From a virus: 64,000 nt of DNA. Position 1 is the stretch's first letter, and the number at the start of each line of letters is the position of its first letter. Below, one piece after another: positions 7,614 through 63,798 of the stretch. The notes below the pieces were generated by a model. It searched no databases. It saw only the letters and a list, made by a program, of their open reading frames with translations, and was not told the DNA's origin. The DNA lies in the IMG/VR virus record IMGVR_UViG_3300009130_000023, positions 1 through 64,000 of that record; one strand, 5' to 3'. Position numbers and translations under genes: made by a program.

Positions 7614-7832
7614 TTAAAAGAATGGTAAACCTGATTTTTTAGTCGTATCAAGGTTTTCTTTCACTATTGTGGACATAATTTCGCGATCTTCGTAGGTTGT
7701 ATTAAATGCTTCATCCAAAGTTAATCCGCCACGCATATACCAAGCTAATCTCATGATATCTGCTTTAAGCTGTTTGCTCTCACTATCTAGGACCTTCACC
7801 TCCTGTAAAATTTCAGGGAGAGTTTTTGTCAA
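7614..7832 (-). CDS. Small -1-frame ORF after gp26, probable tail-assembly-chaperone extension
   Basis: 72 codons from a TTG at 7832; there is no ATG. The frame is open upstream into the end of gp26 and is entered exactly by a -1 slip at 7844-7850, which would give a 363-residue fusion (287 of gp26, four linker residues, then this ORF). The sequence is helical and contains LAWYMRGGLTLDEAF and YEDREIM, reminiscent of the C-terminal T part of lambda-type G-T chaperones. It lies beside the tape-measure gene, as such chaperones do. The AAGG before the TTG is very close, so independent initiation would be weak. Function is inferred from organisation. Confidence 0.6.
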   Translation of the reverse strand: MTKTLPEILQEVKVLDSESKQLKADIMRLAWYMRGGLTLDEAFNTTYEDREIMSTIVKENLDTTKKSGLPFF

Positions 7833-7837
7833 GATCC

Positions 7838-8704
7838 TTATGCGAAAAAATTTGAACTATCAAAAGTTATTGGAACGTCAAATTCTTTAGGTGCACCTTT
7901 AGCCTGTTCTTCTTCAGTTGTTGTAGCTTTTAAAGGTTTAATGGCAAATTCATCACGTTGTTTTGTAATGTGATCTAAAATTACTTGATAGAATTCTTTT
8001 TCTGCTTTATTAATGAATTCATTAATCATTTTAGAATCAGTAACAGTTTCTCCATCAACTTTAATACTAATAATACTACCTGCAACCATATCGACAGTTA
8101 ATTGTGTTAATCTAATAAAACTTTTGCTAAACAGATCCATTTTTTGTTCGTCTGGTATAGTTTTATCATTTACTAAACCATAGATTTTTTGTTCTTCAAA
8201 AGTTTTAAGAGCGTTTTTAGTAAACTCTGAATAAGATAAAGGTTTTACTTTTATTTCCATATTGCCATGGAAAACTGTATCGTTATATTTTGCAACAATA
8301 AGTTTATCAAGTAAAATTCTTAAATCAACTTCCATATCTCTATCAGCTCCTGTTTCAGGAACTTTAACACTAATAGTCATTTGTTCACCATATGTTGCTA
8401 ATCTAATACCTATTAATATTGCATCCATATCAATACTTGGCATTGACCATGGATCTTTAATATTAGGTACACAACTCTTAATAACTTCAACTGTGGCTTG
8501 ACCATTAATTAATGCATCAGGCGTTTTGAATGTGAGCTCATCTTTTGCTGTCATTGGATATACAGGTACTTCACCGTTTTCAGGTAAATCTAACGTGCCT
8601 TCGGGATAAAACGTACCTCCACTAGGTAATTTTAGATAAATTTTAGGTTGTCTAAAATACTTTTCTAAAGGATTAGATTTAGCACTCGTTGTTTTTTTTG
8701 GCAT
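7838..8704 (-). CDS. 26: gp26-like baseplate hub / tail-assembly protein
   Basis: 288 residues. The N-terminal half has the family core: LPSGGTFYPEGTLDLPENGE, VYPMTAKDEL, then PDALINGQATVEVIKSCVPN and MDAILIGIRLATYGE. This is the T4 gp26-type baseplate family as it appears in marine T4-like phages. The C-terminal half is helical and ends in SNFFA. The last codons AAT TTT TTC contain the heptamer T_TTT_TTC seven to one bases before the final Ala codon. A CATAAATA late promoter on this strand lies at 8759-8766. Given the frameshift layout and the adjacent tape-measure gene, the protein may act as a tail chaperone instead of a hub component. Confidence 0.8.
   Translation of the reverse strand: MPKKTTSAKSNPLEKYFRQPKIYLKLPSGGTFYPEGTLDLPENGEVPVYPMTAKDELTFKTPDALINGQATVEVIKSCVPNIKDPWSMPSIDMDAILIGIRLATYGEQMTISVKVPETGADRDMEVDLRILLDKLIVAKYNDTVFHGNMEIKVKPLSYSEFTKNALKTFEEQKIYGLVNDKTIPDEQKMDLFSKSFIRLTQLTVDMVAGSIISIKVDGETVTDSKMINEFINKAEKEFYQVILDHITKQRDEFAIKPLKATTTEEEQAKGAPKEFDVPITFDSSNFFA
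7844..7850 (-). promoter_or_regulatory. Candidate programmed -1 ribosomal frameshift site (T_TTT_TTC)
   Basis: In the gp26 frame the codons are AAT TTT TTC GCA TAA, so the heptamer fits the X_XXY_YYZ rule exactly. A -1 slip continues as Arg-Ile-Arg-Ile-Leu into the downstream ORF with no stop between. A possible downstream stem, CTCCCTG with CAGGAG (7800-7820), lies about 24 bases after the site, farther than usual. Confidence 0.6.
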
Positions 8705-8791: not shown

Positions 8792-10906
8792 ATGGCAGAA
8801 GGATTTATAATAAAAGGACAGGATCTAGTAGAAGCCGGTATAGCTACCAATAGTAGAGATATCCGGATCGAAACCACATCTCGACTGCCAAAAGGTGGAA
8901 GAGATGCCACATTAGCCAACATACAAAAAGAAAATAAAGCGAGAGAAAAAAGCATTTCGCTAGAAGATAAAAAATTTAAAAAACAACTAAAAACTCTTGA
9001 AGGTACTGAAAAAGTAAATGCTATACTAGAGTTTTATGGGCGTAGACACTCAACTACAATTCAAGTTGTAAAAGCATTTGGTTCAAGCATATTAGATTCA
9101 AGAACCCAAATAGATACTTTTGGAGCAATAGTAGAATCAGCAACAAGTAATTTAGGTGCTTTAGGCAGAACTTTAGGACAAGCATTTAATCAACTAACTA
9201 TAGAAATTCATAAACAAATAGAAACATTCCGTAACCTATCTGAAGCAGGGGTACAATTCTCTGGAGGATTGTTTGAATATAGAAGAATGGCAATAGATGC
9301 CGGTGTAAGTTTAGAGATGTTCCAAAATGCAGTTAGTGGTGCATCAGAATCTATTGCAAATTTTGGTGGATCAGTTTATGTTGGTACAAAAAGATTTTCT
9401 GAAATTAGCGGAATGATTCAAAGAGATTTTGGACCATCAATGGCTAGATTAGGTATTCGGTTTGAGGAACAATTAGAATATTGGGGAGATTATTTAGACA
9501 TTCAAGTAAAATTAGGTAGAGCTCAAACAATGAGTAACCAAGAATTACAATTAGGTACTCAAAATTATATTATGCAATTAGATCAACTAGCCACATTAAC
9601 AGGTAAACAAAGAAAAGAAATTGCTCAAGCTATGCAATCTGCGGCGGCAGATAGATCCATCGCTGGTATATTCCAAGCCTTGGAGGCAGGTGCAAACGAA
9701 AACCTAAGAGGTATAATAGGTGCATTAGAAGGAATCACAGATACTGAAATGAAAGGTGGTTTAAAAGATTTAATTGCTACAGGCGGTATACCAATGACCG
9801 AATTTGGAAAATCTTTAATGCTATTGAATCCTGAATTAGGAGTAATGGCTAAAAGAGCTAGAGATGGAGAAATAGGAGTACATGAATTTTCTGCCGCGAT
9901 AAGACAAACAGCCAATTTAGCAATGGCACGTGGTGATGCTGAATTAAGATTAACACCTATCTTGGCTCAACAAGGTAATACAGTTTTATCTGCTGTAACT
10001 CAAATGCGTAGACATACTAAATTTGGTGAAAAATTAACTGAAGCAGATGCAGAAAGATTAAAAATGGTTCAAGAGAATAATAAAGCTGTACAAGGTTTAC
10101 AAGGTTCTTTCCAAAGATTAGCGAATGCTTTATTGAATTTATTAGAAGGACCGATAAAAGCAGTAACATTTGTCATTGATGCAATGGCGGCTGGTTTAGA
10201 AAAACTTACTAGAGGAGGATCAGGATTAGGAGCATTAGCGGCTGGAGTTATTGGAGTAATTGGTGCGTTTGCGGCATTAAGAGTGGCATCATTTGCATTA
10301 AGAGGTGCATTTGGATTAATGGGTAAAATGCTCCCGATGGCTGGTGGTGCTGGTGGCAAGATGAAGGCGGTGGGCAAAGTCGCTGGAGGTTTAGGTAGTG
10401 TAGCGGCACTTAAAGGTGGAGCTATTGTTGGAGGAATAATGGCATTAGTTGGTGCTGGTGCTGGTCTTGGTTTGTATGCGGCTGGAAAAGGTTTAGGAGT
10501 AGTAGCTGAAAGTTTAGAAAGAGTTGTAACTGTTGATCATAACAAATTTAATTCGCTAGTAGAGAGTATCAAAGTATTATCTAATACAGATTTTAATGCC
10601 AATTTTGGACAATTTTCAAGCAATATGACAACGTTTGCATCTACTATGAGAGAAGTAACAAAAGAACTTGACACAGCTCCACTTATAGAGTATACTAAAA
10701 ACTTAACGGACCTAAATGCCCAAACTTTGGTAGTTAATAAAAATCTTGCAACTACAACAGCAGGCGCCGGGAAGGTTACAGGAGATAAGCTAGATACGTT
10801 AAATAGTACTATGAGCGAGATCTTAATGGTATTGACAACCAATACGAATTATGCTAGAATAATTTCAAAAAAGGATTTTGAAGGCAATTTAATGAAAACG
10901 GTTTAA
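8792..10906 (+). CDS. Tail tape measure protein
   Basis: 704 residues. It is predominantly helical throughout, with a charged N-terminal third and coiled-coil-prone middle. Hydrophobic Gly/Ala-rich segments lie near residues 480-505 and 540-565 (for example LGALAAGVIGVIGAFAALRV), as in tape-measure proteins that pass through the hub and membrane. It plays the role of T4 gp29 (590 residues), which sets tail length. Placement next to gp26 and its -1-frame partner fits a tape measure beside its chaperone. The gene runs to three bases before portal gp20, so the two are cotranscribed. The call rests on architecture and position. Confidence 0.75.
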   Translation: MAEGFIIKGQDLVEAGIATNSRDIRIETTSRLPKGGRDATLANIQKENKAREKSISLEDKKFKKQLKTLEGTEKVNAILEFYGRRHSTTIQVVKAFGSSILDSRTQIDTFGAIVESATSNLGALGRTLGQAFNQLTIEIHKQIETFRNLSEAGVQFSGGLFEYRRMAIDAGVSLEMFQNAVSGASESIANFGGSVYVGTKRFSEISGMIQRDFGPSMARLGIRFEEQLEYWGDYLDIQVKLGRAQTMSNQELQLGTQNYIMQLDQLATLTGKQRKEIAQAMQSAAADRSIAGIFQALEAGANENLRGIIGALEGITDTEMKGGLKDLIATGGIPMTEFGKSLMLLNPELGVMAKRARDGEIGVHEFSAAIRQTANLAMARGDAELRLTPILAQQGNTVLSAVTQMRRHTKFGEKLTEADAERLKMVQENNKAVQGLQGSFQRLANALLNLLEGPIKAVTFVIDAMAAGLEKLTRGGSGLGALAAGVIGVIGAFAALRVASFALRGAFGLMGKMLPMAGGAGGKMKAVGKVAGGLGSVAALKGGAIVGGIMALVGAGAGLGLYAAGKGLGVVAESLERVVTVDHNKFNSLVESIKVLSNTDFNANFGQFSSNMTTFASTMREVTKELDTAPLIEYTKNLTDLNAQTLVVNKNLATTTAGAGKVTGDKLDTLNSTMSEILMVLTTNTNYARIISKKDFEGNLMKTV

Positions 10907-44304: not shown

Positions 44305-45285
44305 ATGCCAGCAACAAGTCTTAGAGGATTATTAGGAACTAAACAAGATACTTTCGTAGCATTTGGCGAAGAAAATCTTGAGAAGGGTAGAATATATGTC
44401 TACACTCAAGGTGCCAACTATTCGAGATTATGGTGCGGATTTTGTTTTCACCCAGGTGAAGCAGGAACGGCTACAATAGAAGTTTGGGGAGCTGGTGGTA
44501 GTGGTGCAGAAATGTGCTGTTGCGGATTTGGCTTACCTGGTAATTCAGCGGCATACGTAAAAAGAACTATCTCATTAGCGGCTAATGGTTATATTTGCGG
44601 ATGTACTGGTCAATCCTGTGGTAATGGAGATACATTATGTCACAGAGGTTGCTCTGAACCAACTTTCATGAATATTTCCAAAGATGGCACAGCAGGTGGA
44701 TGTACTTGTATTTGTGCTCAAGGTGGAGCAGGTGGCGTTTCTTACTGTTCTTCAAACGAATCATTTTATTGTTGTTATAAAGCAAACGGTTTTTGTGTTA
44801 CAAAAACTGAAAACGATCACTGCGGTATTGTATGTAATATGTGCGATGGAAAACATATCGCTCAAGGATATTGCGGAAATATAATGTGTCCAGGAAGAAC
44901 TTCTTGTGTATCAGCATTTGGCTGTCACCCAAGTTGTCCTTGTCAATTCCACTGGCACAATCCGACACCGGCAGGAATGTTCAGTGAAAACGGAGCATAT
45001 ATCACTTACAATACAGAAAATAATAATGGATTTTCACAATGGTCAGGTCACGGAGGTCACCAATTGGAAGCATCACTAGGTGCTGGAAGATTCCCAACTG
45101 GTGGAATACCTTGGGCAACTTGCTGGGGAGCAAGTAAGGCTTGTAACTGTTATGAAGCAGATCCATGTATACCACACGTTCCAGTAGGAATGGGAGGTCA
45201 CGGACCAATGCCTTGCGATGGAGTAAGAGATCACGCAAACAGAGGTGGCCATGGTGGAGTTAGAATTAAATGGATTACAGGATAG
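44305..45285 (+). CDS. Cysteine-rich Gly-rich adhesin-like protein, copy 1
   Basis: 326 residues with 31 cysteines by my count (about 9.5%). The frame is that of a Gly-rich phage adhesin domain: a first strand ATIEVWGAGGSGAEMCCC, many short Gly loops, and a last strand GGHGGVRIKWITG. The spacing of many Cys is kept in the two following paralogues (the CCC after M, FYCCY, CGI/M-x-CN, CNCYE/CGCY). Cysteines as single, CxC and CCC groups suggest metal sites or many disulphides. The N-terminal EENLEKGRIYVYTQG is also shared. There is no signal peptide, so it is a cytoplasmically assembled virion or fibre-tip protein. Confidence 0.75.
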   Translation: MPATSLRGLLGTKQDTFVAFGEENLEKGRIYVYTQGANYSRLWCGFCFHPGEAGTATIEVWGAGGSGAEMCCCGFGLPGNSAAYVKRTISLAANGYICGCTGQSCGNGDTLCHRGCSEPTFMNISKDGTAGGCTCICAQGGAGGVSYCSSNESFYCCYKANGFCVTKTENDHCGIVCNMCDGKHIAQGYCGNIMCPGRTSCVSAFGCHPSCPCQFHWHNPTPAGMFSENGAYITYNTENNNGFSQWSGHGGHQLEASLGAGRFPTGGIPWATCWGASKACNCYEADPCIPHVPVGMGGHGPMPCDGVRDHANRGGHGGVRIKWITG

Positions 45286-45294
45286 GATAAAATT

Positions 45295-46302
45295 ATGGCA
45301 TCATTAACGACATTATTGCAAACAAAATATGATGGGATAGCGGCTGGAGAAACTAACCTGGAAAAAGGTACAATTTATACTTTTTATCCTTCCAACGATT
45401 ATAACACAAACTTCCAATGTCACGTATGTTGGAAACCACCTGCAAACGGTACAGCACTTTTAGAAGTTTGGGGAGCGGCTGGATCAGGTGCAGAAATGTG
45501 TTGTTGCGGTGGAGGAATACCAGGTAACCCAGGTGGTTATGCTAAAAAACAACTAGCGGCTTTTGGTGCAAGTTGGTCAGATTGTTTTGTTTGTTCAGTT
45601 ATTGGTTTATCATGCGGTAACTCAGATACTTTAAGTCACAGAGGACGTTCAGAACCAACTCAAGTTTGTTGGTTTGCCGGCGGAGCAGATGGATGTATTT
45701 GTTCTGAAGGTGGTCAAGGAGGATGTTCTATTTGTTCTACTGGTAATGCATTATATTGTTGTTTTGTAGCACAAAATTATTGTCATACACAAGGTGGAAG
45801 CACTTATTGTGGAATAATTTGTAATTATAGAGATGATGGTGGAAACAGTTATGACGGTGCAGATTATTGTGCATTTGCTTATGGCGGAGATGTAAACTGT
45901 TATGGTGGATTTAGTTGTTATTACTTTAGAGGATGTCAACCAAACTGTAACTGTAGATATATTGCAGTAATTAAAGTTCCACCTGGAATGGTTTCAGAGT
46001 GCGGTGGAGAAGTTCAATACGCACACGATGAAGATAGTGAAAAAGTTTATCACTCAGGTTCAGGCGGAATTATGGGAGTTATGGAACCTCTTAATTTAAT
46101 GACAAGAAGTCCTACACAAGGTTCACCTTACAACGCTTGTTGGACAGGTAATGACTCTTGCGGTTGTTATCAAGATCAAGGATGTATTCACTTCTTTCCA
46201 GGAGGAATACCAGGACAAGGACCAACACCGTGCGATGGATATAGAGATCACGCATGGAGAGGTGGAAACGGAATATTAAGAATTAAGTTTATAGCTTCGT
46301 AA
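45295..46302 (+). CDS. Cysteine-rich Gly-rich adhesin-like protein, copy 2
   Basis: 335 residues with 30 cysteines. Shares ETNLEKGTIYTFYPSNDY, LLEVWGAAGSGAEMCCCGGG and the closing GNGILRIKFIAS with copies 1 and 3. The central part is Tyr/Gly-rich (YGGDVNCYGGFSCYYFRG) and differs most between copies, as expected of a binding surface. It starts nine bases after copy 1. Confidence 0.75.
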   Translation: MASLTTLLQTKYDGIAAGETNLEKGTIYTFYPSNDYNTNFQCHVCWKPPANGTALLEVWGAAGSGAEMCCCGGGIPGNPGGYAKKQLAAFGASWSDCFVCSVIGLSCGNSDTLSHRGRSEPTQVCWFAGGADGCICSEGGQGGCSICSTGNALYCCFVAQNYCHTQGGSTYCGIICNYRDDGGNSYDGADYCAFAYGGDVNCYGGFSCYYFRGCQPNCNCRYIAVIKVPPGMVSECGGEVQYAHDEDSEKVYHSGSGGIMGVMEPLNLMTRSPTQGSPYNACWTGNDSCGCYQDQGCIHFFPGGIPGQGPTPCDGYRDHAWRGGNGILRIKFIAS

Positions 46303-46307
46303 AAAGG

Positions 46308-46315
46308 AATAAATA
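46308..46315 (+). promoter_or_regulatory. Late promoter AATAAATA directly before 46321
   Basis: Ends six bases before the ATG of copy 3, so the expected start is the A of the ATG and the transcript would be leaderless. Transcript arriving from upstream would use AAGGA, which overlaps the promoter. Confidence 0.5.
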
Positions 46316-46320
46316 TTATT

Positions 46321-47292
46321 ATGGCAACATTAAAAAACATATTAACAACAAGACAACCGGCAAGTATGTCAGAAAATAACCTAGAAAAAGGTTACATTTA
46401 TGCATATTCTCCGGGTACTCAATTTGCTAATTTTTGTAATGGTGTTTGTTGGACAGCTATAGCAGATGGAAAAGCTATTGTAGAAATTTGGGGAGCTGGT
46501 GGATCTGGTTCTCGTATGTGTTGTTGCGGAGATGGATTACCAGGTAATGCAGGAGCATATTCTAAAAAAACAATTCAAGTAAATCAAGGTGATACAATTA
46601 CAGCTACTTTAGGAATGGCTTGTAGAGCTCACCCACTTTGTCACTCAGGATGTAGTGATTCAACTCAATTATGTTACATAACAACTACTGGAAGTGCAGA
46701 TGGTTGTATGTGTGCAAGAGGTGGATATGGTGGAAAATCTATGTGTACAACTGGTACATCTTTCTATTGTTGTTACAGTGCAGAAGGTTTCTGTACTAAT
46801 AGATGTAACAATGACAATTGTGGAATGACTTGTAACTGGTGTAATGGTGCATGGGAAGCCTTAGCATATGGTGGAGATATAAATTGTTGTGGACAAATAG
46901 GCTGTACTAGTTGGTTCGGCTGTTGCCCTCACTGTAAATGTTTCTTCCAAAGACACGCTCCTATACCTTCAGGACTTTTTGCGGAAAATGGAGCATTAAT
47001 TACGTTCCAAACAGAATCAGATGGAACACCTATGTCTAACTGGTCAGGTAACCAATTATTCCAATATTATGCGGCTCTTAATTTGGCTACTAAATCACCA
47101 AGACAAGGAAATCCAAGAGCTTATTGTTGGAGATCAGACAGATCTTGCGGTTGTTATGAATCACAAGGATGTGCTAATTTCTTACCAACAGGAGCAGGTG
47201 GACTACCGCCAATGGCTTGTCCAGACGTTAGAGACCACGGAATACGTGGAGGACACGGAGGAGTTAGAATCAAGTTTATAGCTTCGGCATAA
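46321..47292 (+). CDS. Cysteine-rich Gly-rich adhesin-like protein, copy 3
   Basis: 323 residues with 31 cysteines. ENNLEKGYIYAYSPGTQF, IVEIWGAGGSGSRMCCCGDG, the more canonical YSKKTIQVNQGDTITATLGM, and GGHGGVRIKFIASA at the end. The segment after CCC is the closest of the three to ordinary Gly-rich tail adhesins, so the Cys-rich family probably arose from such a domain. A recent triplication is unlikely because the copies are well diverged. Confidence 0.75.
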   Translation: MATLKNILTTRQPASMSENNLEKGYIYAYSPGTQFANFCNGVCWTAIADGKAIVEIWGAGGSGSRMCCCGDGLPGNAGAYSKKTIQVNQGDTITATLGMACRAHPLCHSGCSDSTQLCYITTTGSADGCMCARGGYGGKSMCTTGTSFYCCYSAEGFCTNRCNNDNCGMTCNWCNGAWEALAYGGDINCCGQIGCTSWFGCCPHCKCFFQRHAPIPSGLFAENGALITFQTESDGTPMSNWSGNQLFQYYAALNLATKSPRQGNPRAYCWRSDRSCGCYESQGCANFLPTGAGGLPPMACPDVRDHGIRGGHGGVRIKFIASA

Positions 47293-48072: not shown

Positions 48073-49050
48073 ATGACTGAAAATAATCCAATATCTAGAC
48101 CAAAAGCATTTTTTTTAAATGGGGGAATGGGCAGAATAATTTGTGCCATCCCTGCCCTTGAAAAATACTATAATGAATCTAACGATAAAGATTTTATTAT
48201 AGTAATAGAAGGTATCCAAAATATCTTAGATGGTCATCCAACATTAGATTCTAAAACATTTGACTATGGTCATAAAAATTTATTCCACACTAAACTTGTA
48301 AAAATGGATGTGATAAGTTTAGAGCCATATAGAGTATGGGAATACTATAATCAAAAATGTAATATAACTCAAGCATTTGATATTTTAATTAATAACAAAG
48401 GCGTTAGAGAATTATCAGCACCTACAATTAATCTAAGTCAAGAAGAATTACTTGCAGGGAAAAAAGCAGTTAAAGAAATTAAAGATAAACTTAAAAAAGA
48501 AAAAGTAATTGTTTTACAACCTTTTGGACGAGGCATTCAACAAATAGATAATAGTTTTGTAGATAAAACTTGTCGAAGTATGGAATTTAAAAATCTAAAA
48601 AGTATAATAAGAAAATTACAAGCACAAGATTATGCAATTATATTAATGGCAGAATTTGGAATTGAATTAAAAGGTGAGAAATATCCAGATGAAGTAGCAA
48701 TGCCTGAAGGAATTGATTTAAGAAAATGGTTAGCAATTATAAAAAATTGTGATCATTTTTTAGGTTGTGATAGTGTAGGTCAACATTTAGCCTATATAGG
48801 TGGAACAGAAGCAACAGTAATAATTGGTGCAACGTTCCCAGTTAATACATCATATCCTAAAACAAAAGGAATTAATATTATAGATATGGGACAAATAGAT
48901 AGAGAATATGATCCAATAAGAATAACAAACGATGAACAAGTTAGTAGACATAATGAAAAATTAATGTGGATGTCTGATGAAGTAGAAGATTATGTTGTAA
49001 ATGTAATATTAGGAAAACAAAAAACTGACGAGGAAGAACTAAATGAATAA
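48073..49050 (+). CDS. GT9-like (heptosyltransferase-type) glycosyltransferase 1
   Basis: 325 residues. N-terminal FFLNGGMGRIICAIPALEKY is the G-G-x-G-D/R-x-x-x-x-x-P-A-L element of family 9 glycosyltransferases. The C-terminal half has IVLQPFGRGI and CDHFLGCDSVGQHLAYIGGT followed by IGATFP, the family's donor-binding D-S-x-x-x-H-x-A motif. GT9 enzymes transfer heptose or related sugars to lipopolysaccharide. A paralogue follows at 50841, with the carbamoyltransferase between. The end overlaps the next gene by eight bases. Target (host surface glycan or virion protein) is unknown. Confidence 0.78.
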   Translation: MTENNPISRPKAFFLNGGMGRIICAIPALEKYYNESNDKDFIIVIEGIQNILDGHPTLDSKTFDYGHKNLFHTKLVKMDVISLEPYRVWEYYNQKCNITQAFDILINNKGVRELSAPTINLSQEELLAGKKAVKEIKDKLKKEKVIVLQPFGRGIQQIDNSFVDKTCRSMEFKNLKSIIRKLQAQDYAIILMAEFGIELKGEKYPDEVAMPEGIDLRKWLAIIKNCDHFLGCDSVGQHLAYIGGTEATVIIGATFPVNTSYPKTKGINIIDMGQIDREYDPIRITNDEQVSRHNEKLMWMSDEVEDYVVNVILGKQKTDEEELNE

Positions 49051-50854
49051 ATCAGGTTATATTGCGGCAATAGCCAGAGGACATAATGCAGGAATATGTT
49101 TATTAAAAGATGGAGAAATTGTTTTTGCAATAGAAGAAGAAAGATTATCTAGACACAAATACGATGGTGGTCCTTATCGTTCAATGATGGAAGTATTAAA
49201 ATATACTGACAAAATAGATTATTTAATTGTAGCTCATACACAACCATTAGATGATCCTACTACTGGTAAAGTAGATTATACTCATGATGATGTATATACA
49301 GGAATAGCAAGAAAATTAGGTTTAATAGATAGAAAAGCAAATTTAAAACAACACCCACAAGTAATTGACCTAAGTCATATTCATCATAAGTTACACGCCG
49401 GTTGTGCTTTTTATAGATCAGGATTTGATAAAGCCTGTTCGGTTATTGTTGATGGAGCAGGAACTTTTATGCCTGTTAATAATCAACTTACAGGAGATTT
49501 ATGGATGTTTGAAATAGAATCTATTTTTGATTGTTCATATCCTAATAATATAACAACTGTATGGAAACACTACGGTACTGGTTCTGCGTCTCCTGGAGCA
49601 CATATGACAAAAATGGATTCATCTAAAATGGGAGAACCTGGTAAAACTCATGAATGTTTATTTTCAGATGTAGCAGGAATTGTTAAAGTTTATGAAGCAG
49701 TTACTCAATACTGTGGATTCTCAGCCATTGAAGCAGGAAAAACAATGGGATTATTTCCTTATGGAAAACCTAATGATAGAATTCCTCCATTATTTCATAA
49801 TGAAATAAAATATATGTCTTTATCTAATAGACATTTAATAATTCCTACATATCCTAATGCGGCAATAGTAAATGAAGGCATTTATGATTATTTAGATGAA
49901 ACACCTACAGACAATCCTGATGTTACTAAACTACCTAATAGAAGAGATTTAGCCTATGCTTGTCAAACAGAAACTCAAGCAGAAGTTTTAAAATTAATTT
50001 ATAAAGCTGTAGAAATGACAGGTCAAAAAAATGTTGTATTATCTGGTGGATATGGATTAAATTGTGTAGCAAATTATTGGTATCTTGAGTCTTTAAGAAA
50101 AGATGGAATTAATTTATTTGTTGAACCAGTATCAAATGACGCCGGAACAGCCATTGGAGCGGCTCTTTTATTTTATTATGGTATGTCAGAAGATATGACA
50201 AAAAGACCACTTACTACATTATGTCAAGGTCCAGAAAGAAAATATACATTAGAAGAAATAGAAAAATTAGCAAATAAACCTGGTGTTGAATTGATGGACG
50301 CAAACGATAAAGATGTAGTTAAATTAATGATAGAAAAAAATATTGTTTCAATGTTTCAAGGAAAATCAGAAAGTGGTCCAAGAGCATTAGGTAACAGAAG
50401 TATTTTATTTGATCCTTCATTTAAAGATGGTAAAGATTTTGTTAATATAGTTAAACGAAGAGAATATTTTAGACCATTTGCAGGATCTATATTACATGAA
50501 CACGTACACGAATGGTTTGATTTAAGAGGAATGGAAGAAAGTCCTTATATGATGTATGCTGTAAATTGTCAAGAAGGAATAGCAGAAAAAATTCCTAGTA
50601 TTATACACGTAGATGGTACTTGTAGAATACAAACAGTTAAAGAAGAACAAAATCCATTGTATTATAAATTAATTAAAGAGTTTTATAATCAAACAAAAAT
50701 ACCAATTGTGTTTAATACGTCATTTAATTTAGCTGGAGAACCACTTGTAGAAACATTAGAAGACGCTATATGGACTCTTGAACAATCTCTTTTAGAATAT
50801 TTGTATCTTCCAGAATATGGAAAAATGATAAAGGTAAAAAATGTTAAGAAATAG
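49043..50854 (+). CDS. NodU/CmcH-family carbamoyltransferase
   Basis: 603 residues, the full family length. The N-terminal Kae1/YgjD-like domain has GHNAGICLLKDGEIVFAIEE and ERLSRHKYDGG, then HIHHKLHAGCAFYRSGF and IVDGAGTF. The C-terminal domain has SGPRALGNRSILFDP, RREYFRPFAGSIL, HVDGTCRIQTV and IVFNTSFNLAGEPLVETLED. These enzymes carbamoylate sugar or antibiotic hydroxyl groups using carbamoyl phosphate and ATP. Overlaps at both ends with the two GT9 genes indicate one coupled operon, so the carbamoyl group probably goes on the sugar that the GT9 enzymes transfer. Confidence 0.92.
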   Translation: MNKSGYIAAIARGHNAGICLLKDGEIVFAIEEERLSRHKYDGGPYRSMMEVLKYTDKIDYLIVAHTQPLDDPTTGKVDYTHDDVYTGIARKLGLIDRKANLKQHPQVIDLSHIHHKLHAGCAFYRSGFDKACSVIVDGAGTFMPVNNQLTGDLWMFEIESIFDCSYPNNITTVWKHYGTGSASPGAHMTKMDSSKMGEPGKTHECLFSDVAGIVKVYEAVTQYCGFSAIEAGKTMGLFPYGKPNDRIPPLFHNEIKYMSLSNRHLIIPTYPNAAIVNEGIYDYLDETPTDNPDVTKLPNRRDLAYACQTETQAEVLKLIYKAVEMTGQKNVVLSGGYGLNCVANYWYLESLRKDGINLFVEPVSNDAGTAIGAALLFYYGMSEDMTKRPLTTLCQGPERKYTLEEIEKLANKPGVELMDANDKDVVKLMIEKNIVSMFQGKSESGPRALGNRSILFDPSFKDGKDFVNIVKRREYFRPFAGSILHEHVHEWFDLRGMEESPYMMYAVNCQEGIAEKIPSIIHVDGTCRIQTVKEEQNPLYYKLIKEFYNQTKIPIVFNTSFNLAGEPLVETLEDAIWTLEQSLLEYLYLPEYGKMIKVKNVKK

Positions 50855-51788
50855 TGCTATCTTTTTAAATGGCGGTGCTGGAAGAATGATTAGTTCCATA
50901 CCTGCATTAGAAAATTTTGAAAAAGAAAATCCTAATGATGATTTTGTAATAATTTGTGAAGGTGGAACTGATGTTTTAAAAGGTCATCCAACATTATATT
51001 ATAAAACATATGACAATTGGCATAAAGGACTTTTTAAAGAATTAATAAAAGATAGAAATTGTATTAATCCTGAACCATATAGAGTATGGGAATACTATAC
51101 TCAAAAATGTAGTCTTGCTCAAGCATATGATATTGCAATTAATAATAAAGGTATAAGAGAATTACAAAAACCTACAATAAGATTAAGCAAAGATGAACTA
51201 TTATATGCTCGAAAAATGTTAACTGAAGTAAAAGAAAAATGCAAAAAAGATAAAATAATTGTTATTCAACCCTTTGGAAGAGGTGTTAGAAAAGAAGATA
51301 AAGATGTAGTTGACATTACCGGCAGAAGTATGGAAACTAAAAATCTTTATAATATAGTAAGAAAGTTATCTAAAAAATATGCTGTAATGATTATGACAGA
51401 AACACCATTAGAATTTAATAAGCATATGTCATCACCTGTAGCTACACCACAAAACGTACATATTAGAATATGGATGGCTGTAATTAGACAATGTGATCAC
51501 TTTGTAGGATGTGACAGTGTAGGTGCACATATGGCTTATACTTTTGACACAACTACAACATCTATTATAGGATCTACATTTCCTATTAATACATCATTTC
51601 CAGATTATGAAAAATTTGATGTCATTGATTTGGGCAAAGAAGACCGTGTTTATAGCCCTATAAGAATTACTGTAGATGAATTTTCAGACCGTATAAACGA
51701 GGGTATTATGGAGATGAATGACCAACAAGAGCAACAAGTTATTGCATCTGTCAATAGAATGATAAAACACGGTAAAAATACCCGTTAA
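50841..51788 (+). CDS. GT9-like glycosyltransferase 2, paralogue of 48073
   Basis: 315 residues. IFLNGGAGRMISSIPALENF, EPYRVWEYYTQKCSLAQAYD, IVIQPFGRGVRKED and CDHFVGCDSVGAHMAYTFDT match copy 1 position by position, so the two arose by duplication and then diverged. In the C-terminal motif Gln is replaced by Ala before the conserved His. It starts 14 bases inside the end of the carbamoyltransferase gene. Confidence 0.78.
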   Translation: MLRNSAIFLNGGAGRMISSIPALENFEKENPNDDFVIICEGGTDVLKGHPTLYYKTYDNWHKGLFKELIKDRNCINPEPYRVWEYYTQKCSLAQAYDIAINNKGIRELQKPTIRLSKDELLYARKMLTEVKEKCKKDKIIVIQPFGRGVRKEDKDVVDITGRSMETKNLYNIVRKLSKKYAVMIMTETPLEFNKHMSSPVATPQNVHIRIWMAVIRQCDHFVGCDSVGAHMAYTFDTTTTSIIGSTFPINTSFPDYEKFDVIDLGKEDRVYSPIRITVDEFSDRINEGIMEMNDQQEQQVIASVNRMIKHGKNTR

Positions 51789-61998: not shown

Positions 61999-62388
61999 TT
62001 ATTTCTTTTCAGGATTGTCTTTTTTGGATTGGCTATCGCCTTTTATAACTCTATAATTATCTTCAGAATGATCAGGTGTACTAACTTCGGATACGCTACC
62101 ATGATCAGATACTAATTCTAATTGATGAGGCATTAATGGTGGATTGTACCAAGTTTCACCTTCTTTAAATTCTTTAGTATATAAGGTTGCATCTTTAGTA
62201 TCAATCCAATGTAATTTGAATACTCCACTATTACAAAACCAAGTTTCATCTTTGTCTTTATGAAAATGCATACTAAATTTTGCACCTTTTTTAGTAAAGA
62301 CCATAATTTTTCCACAGTATTTGTCGCTGGATGCCCATATTAATTCATAGCCCCAACCCATTTCTCTTTTACCTAGTTTATTGATCAT
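61999..62388 (-). CDS. Cupin-type sugar isomerase (mannose-6-phosphate isomerase type II-like)
   Basis: 129 residues forming one cupin barrel. GWGYELIWASSDKYCGKIMV, then KFSMHFHKDKDETWFCNSG (metal ligands H and H plus E), and WYNPPLMPHQLELVSDHG with EVSTPDHSEDNYR. This matches the C-terminal cupin of mannose-6-phosphate isomerase/GDP-mannose enzymes as a stand-alone protein. It starts 11 bases inside the end of the epimerase gene and is the last gene of the sugar operon. Its stop abuts the stop of the giant fibre with no spacer. Confidence 0.82.
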   Translation of the reverse strand: MINKLGKREMGWGYELIWASSDKYCGKIMVFTKKGAKFSMHFHKDKDETWFCNSGVFKLHWIDTKDATLYTKEFKEGETWYNPPLMPHQLELVSDHGSVSEVSTPDHSEDNYRVIKGDSQSKKDNPEKK

Positions 62389-63199
62389 CGATAAATTCCT
62401 TAACTGTTTTCCAATTAATGTCTATATGTTTATTTAATTTTGTTAAATCGGCGCAAGTATAAGTTTGATATTGTTTGCTTAAATTTGTTGGCATAGGTAT
62501 TGTTTCTAATTTGGCATTGTATTTTTCAGCAATAATTTTAGCTATTCTTAAAAAACTAGTAGACTTACCAGTACCTACATTAAAAATACCACTTGTATCT
62601 GTTGTTAACATTTGTTCATGTACTTTACATATATCACTTACACAAACAAAATCTCTCATATAATTTTCACTATTTTCAAAAACTTTAATTACTTTATTTT
62701 CTTTAGCTTGTTTTGTAAATTTAGTTATAGGTGACGCTTGATCTTTTTTATCTTCTTCATGAGGACCATACACATTAAAATATCTAAATCCTTGAACAAG
62801 AATTTGAAATCCATCTTTATCTACAGATTCTACAAAACGATCAAAGAAATATTTGCTCCATGCATAAGCATTCATAGGATAAACAGAACCTTCTTCATTA
62901 AAATTTCCTGTAGTTCCATATACACTAGCAGAGCTGGCGTATTGAAAATTTGTTCCCATAGTATCACATAATTGTAACAACCTCATACTAAAGTCATAAT
63001 TTTGTTTCATTATTTTGTTTACATTTGTTTCAGTAGTTTTAGAAATTGCTCCTAAATGAATTATCCAATCATATTTTGATGGATCTGGGAAAGAATTTTC
63101 TATATAATCATAACCTTCTACAGTATGTCCTTTAGTTTGTAAATATGCAAACAAATTACGTCCTATAAATCCTTTATATCCTGTTATTAAAATATTCAT
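62378..63199 (-). CDS. hldD: NAD-dependent sugar epimerase, HldD (ADP-heptose 6-epimerase)-like
   Basis: 273 residues from the ATG at 63199, which overlaps the preceding stop as TAATG; an upstream in-frame ATG at 63220 is less likely. The extended SDR fold shows NILITGYKGFIGRNL (NAD loop), HLGAISKTTETN, YASSASVYG and YAWSKYFFD (catalytic Y-x-x-x-K), then GFRYFNVYGPHEEDK and MRDFVCVSDICKV, and FNVGTGKSTSF. GAIS-x-T-T-E and the F-R-Y-F-N-V-Y-G-P string are characteristic of HldD. It would convert ADP-D-glycero-heptose to the L-glycero form. The HldE-like gene two places upstream supports this over other SDR epimerases. Confidence 0.85.
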   Translation of the reverse strand: MNILITGYKGFIGRNLFAYLQTKGHTVEGYDYIENSFPDPSKYDWIIHLGAISKTTETNVNKIMKQNYDFSMRLLQLCDTMGTNFQYASSASVYGTTGNFNEEGSVYPMNAYAWSKYFFDRFVESVDKDGFQILVQGFRYFNVYGPHEEDKKDQASPITKFTKQAKENKVIKVFENSENYMRDFVCVSDICKVHEQMLTTDTSGIFNVGTGKSTSFLRIAKIIAEKYNAKLETIPMPTNLSKQYQTYTCADLTKLNKHIDINWKTVKEFIDDQ

Positions 63200-63798
63200 T
63201 AGTATCCGTCTGTTTGCCAATCTCTAGTTAATTTACATATTTCTTCTGGTATAGACAAATAAGAATATTTGCTATCTGGAATTGGCACAAAATTAATATT
63301 AATTGCTATTCTAACTTTTTCATCTGTACAAGTAGAACCTGAATGATTTAGATAGCTAGGAAAAATAACCATTGAATTTGCAACACTAGGTATTTGTACA
63401 CCATTTTTAAATTCAGTATATCCATTATTAGTATTAACATAAAATATTGCTGTAAGTGAGCAAGGATGAATAGTATCTATATGGTATCCGTGAACAACTA
63501 CTTTATCGGCTTTTGGAATAAGATTAGCTTTAATTCTAACAAAGTTTATTGGATCTAAAACTGCAAAAATTGGCATTAAAATTTCCCAATTTTCTCCTTG
63601 TGTAACAATTTTACTAAATTCTTGAAATTGATGTACAAATTGTTGTTGATATTCTGATGTACCTGGTTTTGCCATAGCATCTCCTACAACATAATCATAA
63701 TAGTACCAAGGAAAACTTTTATCCATTATTCTATTTCTTAATTTTTCAAAATCTTCAGTACTTAATACATCATTAACAGTTATAATTTTATCTTTCAT
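63199..63798 (-). CDS. 2-oxoglutarate/Fe(II)-dependent oxygenase
   Basis: 199 residues. Fe ligands are in HGYHIDT (H106, D108) and NHSG (H152); R163 (EKVRIAININF) would bind 2-oxoglutarate. The spacing is that of the prolyl-4-hydroxylase-like H-x-D...H...R family common in marine T4-like phages. Substrate is unknown: protein or sugar hydroxylation are both possible. It lies inside the heptose operon, overlapping the upstream gene by 11 bases and the epimerase by one, so action on a surface sugar or on a virion protein is a reasonable inference. Confidence 0.85.
   Translation of the reverse strand: MKDKIITVNDVLSTEDFEKLRNRIMDKSFPWYYYDYVVGDAMAKPGTSEYQQQFVHQFQEFSKIVTQGENWEILMPIFAVLDPINFVRIKANLIPKADKVVVHGYHIDTIHPCSLTAIFYVNTNNGYTEFKNGVQIPSVANSMVIFPSYLNHSGSTCTDEKVRIAININFVPIPDSKYSYLSIPEEICKLTRDWQTDGY

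Follow-up and report, generated by a model that had tools for sequence, protein, structure and literature searches.

Probable −1 frameshifting at a conserved heptamer joins a gp26-like tail-assembly chaperone to a C-terminal domain in T4-like phages

A gp26-like gene in the genome fragment of a T4-like phage very probably encodes a tail-assembly chaperone made in a short and a long form by −1 frameshifting, in the manner of lambda G/GT. We find a conserved slippery heptamer at the end of the gene, a −1 reading frame that varies as coding sequence does, a predicted RNA stem a few nucleotides downstream and, in cyanophage-type phages, a −1 tail that shares homology with the C-terminal end of T4 gp51. 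These comparative findings strongly support the original prediction, made from the DNA alone, of a −1 frameshift joining gp26 to the next open reading frame.

The gp26-like gene and its −1 extension

The DNA analysed, a stretch of 64,000 nucleotides referred to below as the window, comes from a 68.6-kb IMG/VR fragment of a T4-like phage; the isolates closest to this phage are jumbo phages. The features on which the argument draws are as follows, each with its basis in brackets.

7838..8704, minus strand: gp26-like gene, the putative short chaperone (TAC-N), 288 amino acids (PF12322, PHROG 150, AF2 model)
7844..7850, minus strand: slippery heptamer T_TTT_TTC, 0-frame codons AAT TTT TTC (sequence and conservation)
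7838..7840, minus strand: 0-frame TAA ending the short product, two codons past the heptamer (sequence)
7617..7844, minus strand: −1 frame C-terminal domain, 76 amino acids after the putative slip, with its stop at 7614-7616 (conserved length and sequence, codon periodicity, AF2 model)
7789..7838, minus strand: predicted stem-loop GGAUCUU...AAGGUCC, about 5 nt past the heptamer, a likely stimulator (−14.9 kcal/mol and z −1.8 for the stem of the window; group-wide peak)
7830..7832, minus strand: TTG, the sole start candidate near the junction for a separate small ORF (not conserved in relatives)
8792..10906, plus strand: divergent gene for a 704-amino-acid virion protein, candidate tape measure (PHROG 14121; equivalent of CBB_251)

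The gp26-like protein matches the T4_baseplate family PF12322 with an E value of 2e-14, which exceeds the curated cut-off and indicates homology of the N-domain, and PHROG 150 (baseplate hub) with an E value of 1e-17. PF12322 takes in both T4 gp26 and T4 gp51. An AF2 model of the protein (pLDDT 85.6) resembles T4-like 'baseplate hub assembly' models, and the −1 tail, modelled separately from the gp26 part, gives a helical model with a pLDDT of 90. Foldseek searches of the PDB with the gp26 part and with the −1 tail matched no solved chaperone structure.

The 3' end of the gene reads GAT AGT TCA AAT TTT TTC GCA TAA. As predicted, the T_TTT_TTC at this end stands in the 0-frame phase X_XXY_YYZ, the phase needed for a tandem −1 slip. 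No stop interrupts the −1 frame between 19 nt before the gp26 end and 221 nt past it, and entry into this frame gives the expected fusion of 363 residues (287 + 76), the putative long form (TAC-NC). The description of the small ORF as having a weak TTG start only was likewise accurate, the TTG at 7832..7830 being the lone candidate nearby.

Conservation of the slippery site

The same in-phase heptamer, together with a −1 ORF, is present in the isolates Phosso, Atu_ph07, 121Q, Paride, CBB, GAP32, BF and XbC2. In-phase T_TTT_TTC was found in all 96 usable IMG/VR loci and in 84/84 distinct jumbo/marine gp26 proteins, whose identity to the window protein goes down to about 30%, and the heptamer recurs in 64/64 distinct cyanophage-type proteins (IMG/VR). 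P-SSM2, S-PM2, PhiW-14, KVP40 and phiAS5 carry T_TTT_TTC and a −1 tail, and Cr30, phiM12 and HTVC008M carry T_TTT_TTT and a −1 tail. The slippery site and the −1 ORF, whose retention at gp26 3' ends had been proposed as a check, are thus kept in about 150 distinct sequences from several phage families.

Heptamer and −1 stop are 234 nt apart in 75 of the 82 untruncated jumbo/marine cases, while the 0-frame stop in the jumbo/marine set follows the heptamer start at 13, 19, 22, 28 or 43 nt. Because the first distance hardly varies while the 0-frame stop moves, we take the heptamer, and not the stop codon, to be the anchor. When the 84 proteins are aligned by codon, the heptamer codons (the NNT before, TTT and TTC) rank as the top three of 115 testable columns for synonymous constraint. 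The TTC is invariant, yet TTC makes up 24% of the Phe codons in these genes, where other Phe-Phe pairs are written TTT TTC in only 5/43 cases; these ranks and counts are taken over related, non-independent sequences and carry no probability.

A heptamer followed by an open −1 frame could arise by chance in an AT-rich genome, and the string TTTTTTC does occur 27 times in the window, not above the 34.6 copies expected. Since the string is this common, the case rests on the phase, position and conservation of the heptamer. Its invariance in about 150 distinct proteins of several families, with the synonymous constraint and the coding signal in the −1 frame described below, makes the probability of a chance origin negligible, and we consider that explanation refuted by conservation.

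Coding signal and start codons in the −1 frame

Variation in the −1 ORF tracks the codon positions of the −1 frame, giving a coding periodicity. Among 38 sequences that have no start before +42, the region 9-42 nt past the heptamer start has an entropy of 1.17/0.75/1.39 by −1 codon position; for 11 sequences without a start before +96 the values are 0.84/0.48/1.09. By these patterns, the −1 extension is under protein-coding selection that is independent of any start of its own.

A start preceded by an SD-like motif lies near the junction in 7/82 genomes, while gp26 itself has one in 67/81. No start codon at all occurs from 40 nt before to 36 nt after the stop in 34/82, and the −1 ORFs of Paride and of locus L074 contain no ATG, GTG or TTG anywhere; the −1 tail of Paride is wholly unannotated. 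An ATG overlaps the gp26 stop (ATGA or TAATG) in Phosso, Atu_ph07, 121Q, BF and XbC2, and most cyanophages have an ATG at +2, just past the gp26 stop. Relatives lacking a slippery site, or placing the small ORF in a different frame behind a strong start, had been named in advance as evidence against the frameshift. Such evidence is marginal: some ATGs do overlap the gp26 stop, but 75/82 relatives have no start preceded by a ribosome-binding site, and the slip site is kept regardless.

These observations bear on the alternative that the small ORF stands as a gene of its own, its translation depending on coupling to gp26 or on re-initiation at the gp26 stop, and its frame relation simply reflecting 1- or 4-nt overlaps. 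GenBank annotates the small ORF in this way in most isolates, and the ATGs overlapping the stop in the five isolates above, or standing at +2 in cyanophages, would serve such a gene. We nevertheless hold it to be highly improbable, given the 75/82 relatives without an SD-preceded start, the 34/82 without any start around the stop and the coding signal upstream of any start. Moreover, the heptamer is retained with the 0-frame stop up to 43 nt away, coupling leaves both the invariant heptamer and the stem unexplained, the cyanophage ATG is buried in that stem, and T4 gp51 carries the cyanophage-type domain covalently fused. As the main route, an independent small gene is ruled out by the missing starts and by the −1 coding upstream of starts.

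Both routes could also operate side by side, frameshifting producing the long chaperone and re-initiation at an overlapping or adjacent ATG producing a free C-domain too. The heptamer and an ATG do occur together in Phosso, Atu_ph07, 121Q and most cyanophages, but the ATG is not conserved among jumbo phages, and we regard such a double arrangement as rather improbable.

Predicted RNA structure and the proposed slip

In a z-score scan of the 3' region, fold stability is highest 0-6 nt past the heptamer and drops off by +8. The mean z at this peak is −1.2 for 82 jumbo/marine sequences and −3.6 for 61 cyanophage-type sequences; it is the single peak of the jumbo/marine set and the strongest of the cyanophage set, which has a weaker dip at +60 as well. 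In 30/82 jumbo/marine and 51/61 cyanophage-type sequences, nt 6 past the heptamer is where the longest helix begins. Group-wide, these predictions place a putative stimulatory RNA structure 5-9 nt downstream of the heptamer. Strong stems are predicted for S-PM2 (13 bp, z −5.8) and for loci L059 (z −4.8) and L074 (z −3.1); that of the window is moderate (z −1.8), and that of locus L034 is weak (z −0.45). RNAalifold returned no single conserved stem for the jumbo group because the 3' arm shifts between genomes.

The annotated ATG of the cyanophage 'gp51' sits within the post-slip stem (locus L141, 4215-4391, which is P-SSM2; loci L143-L222). Buried in this way, it should be hindered as a site of independent initiation.

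We infer the slip, its rate and the chaperone role of the products as follows. Most ribosomes would end at the gp26 stop and release the short form of 288 amino acids. A fraction would be held by the stem-loop some 5 nt downstream of the heptamer and would slip back one base on T_TTT_TTC, the UUU-UUC pairing being replaced by UUU-UUU. The slipped ribosomes would then enter the −1 frame and complete the form of 363 amino acids, with its helical C-terminal domain. By analogy with lambda G/GT, both forms may cover the tape-measure protein and bring in tail-tube subunits, in a ratio set by the rate of slipping. In T4 and its near relatives the same pair would come from two genes, 26 (the short form) and 51 (the short part plus the C-terminal domain).

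Homology of cyanophage-type −1 tails with T4 gp51

Residues 200-249 of T4 gp51 match the cyanophage-type −1 tails (hhalign 97%, E 4.5e-11), and these tails have further matches at the C-terminal ends of both PHROG 150 and PHROG 634 'hub assembly catalyst'; the P-SSM2 record names its −1 tail 'gp51 baseplate hub assembly catalyst'. The −1 tail of the group to which the window belongs matches the cyanophage tails moderately (hhalign 59%, E 9e-5), and its direct comparison with T4 gp51 is insignificant (hhalign 3%). The link between the window tail and gp51-type tails rests on their common position, frame and heptamer. Neither Pfam nor NCBIfam holds a family for the −1 tail.

T4 and the window thus share the N-domain family (PF12322), and the cyanophage-type C-domain matches the gp51 C-terminus, but T4 has two genes, with no heptamer in gene 26, whereas the window has one gene and a −1 tail that is only distantly similar. 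A short gene and a long gene are both present in T4, phiAS4 and Klebsiella phage CP-p-KP-21068. With both genes in these T4-type phages, and the C-terminus of gp51 homologous to the cyanophage-type tails, the same pair would come from a slip in most lineages but from two separate genes in the T4-type ones. In CP-p-KP-21068 (locus L244, 2501-4185) a full-length gp51 is followed by gp26 and gp25 in tandem (51-26-25), an arrangement consistent with an origin of the T4 26/51 pair by duplication.

A homologous −1 tail persists in Ackermannviridae of the Vi01 type (14 distinct) and in Cygsa01. Their junction reads GAA/GAG ATT TTC ATT TAA (loci L223-L240, Vi01-like; locus L242, 2309-2482) and, because ATT TTC replaces TTT TTC, they are without a canonical X_XXY_YYZ heptamer. 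A few of them have TAATG.

A 2010 comparison described the 'gp51' of cyanophages and marine vibriophage as about 20% of the length of T4 gp51, with the first ~200 amino acids missing, and took it for a gene of its own that had been truncated (Sullivan et al. 2010, PMC3037559). This short 'gp51' is the −1 tail found here. T4 gp26 and gp51 have been listed as hub-assembly chaperones, gp51 being absent from the particle (PMC3004832).

With somewhat better than even confidence, we extend the frameshifted-chaperone reading to the whole T4 superfamily (jumbo T4-like phages, cyanophages, pelagiphages, and KVP40- and Aeh1-type phages), in which frameshifting would be ancestral. The T4 26/51 pair would then have arisen by duplication and by a fusion that made the slip dispensable, the short cyanophage 'gp51' and many unannotated jumbo tails would be mis-annotated halves of one protein, and the Ackermannviridae would use a further, undescribed route. 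T4 gp51 has long been listed as essential and of unknown function. Once gp26 and the small ORF are treated as a single frameshifted gene, the short marine gp51 versions, which the 2010 comparison found inexplicable, are accounted for. T4 also gains a testable assembly role, in which the ratio of 26 to 51 should count as that of G to GT does, and gene calls are corrected across many genomes of jumbo and marine phages.

The divergent neighbour

The next gene, read divergently, had been taken for the tape measure. That a divergent virion gene stands there is borne out: the 704-amino-acid product has as its only match the 'virion structural protein' PHROG 14121 (121Q structural protein family, E 8e-5), and its equivalent in phage CBB, CBB_251, yielded 29 virion peptides (PMC5259590). 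No homology to T4 gp29 was detectable, and the protein is a candidate tape measure, plausible from size and position. The product of the putative CBB chaperone gene, CBB_250, is missing from the virion mass-spectrometry rows neighbouring CBB_251 (PMC5259590). GenBank labels CBB_250 'structural protein', so that its absence from those rows is no more than suggestive of a non-virion chaperone. The short/long layout, the T4 family and the absence of CBB_250 from those rows fit, suggestively, a chaperone that is no part of the virion.

Relation to known chaperone systems

Frameshifts in the TAC genes of lambda (G/GT) and of other long-tailed phages (P2 E/E', Mu 41/42) were reportedly described by Xu, Hendrix and Duda in 2004. 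The lambda slip occurs on GGGAAAG. The window has a different heptamer and its candidate tape measure is divergent; the two systems are likened by layout.

The T4-like chaperones were identified by Vladimirov, Gautam and Davidson (2022, Virology 566:9-15), as cited in PMC10885494 and PMC12846349, and this identification supersedes the claim of the original prediction that gp26 of T4-like phages had no such description. By our reading of the citing papers, these chaperones are gp26 (TAC-N) and gp51 (TAC-NC). The same papers state that some T4-like phages have a short gene and a fused long gene in place of frameshifting (PMC10885494), and that the TAC-N genes of T4-like phages are known to contain poly-T slippery sequences (PMC12846349). 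The TAC of Pseudomonas phage Adele (Vandenendeviridae/Andersonviridae), as presented in PMC12846349, also has a poly-T slip (GTTTTT), and its −1 C-domain was mis-annotated as a hypothetical gene, likewise the −1 tail here; Adele belongs to a different phage family. Measured against these accounts, the locus is a well-supported case of an already recognised T4-like chaperone type, to which the mis-annotation, the downstream stem and the Ackermannviridae exception are possibly fresh additions.

Other genes in the window

Three consecutive paralogues of about 325 amino acids, unusually rich in cysteine (CCCG and CCY repeats), lie at 44305-47292 amid tail-fibre-like genes. A carbamoyltransferase-like ORF of 603 amino acids stands between two similar glycosyltransferase-like ORFs at 48073-51788, and a nucleotide-sugar epimerase-like ORF lies near a cupin at 61999-63798, these names being given from reading the sequence. 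Both groups of sugar-modification-type genes sit in the structural-gene region of the window.
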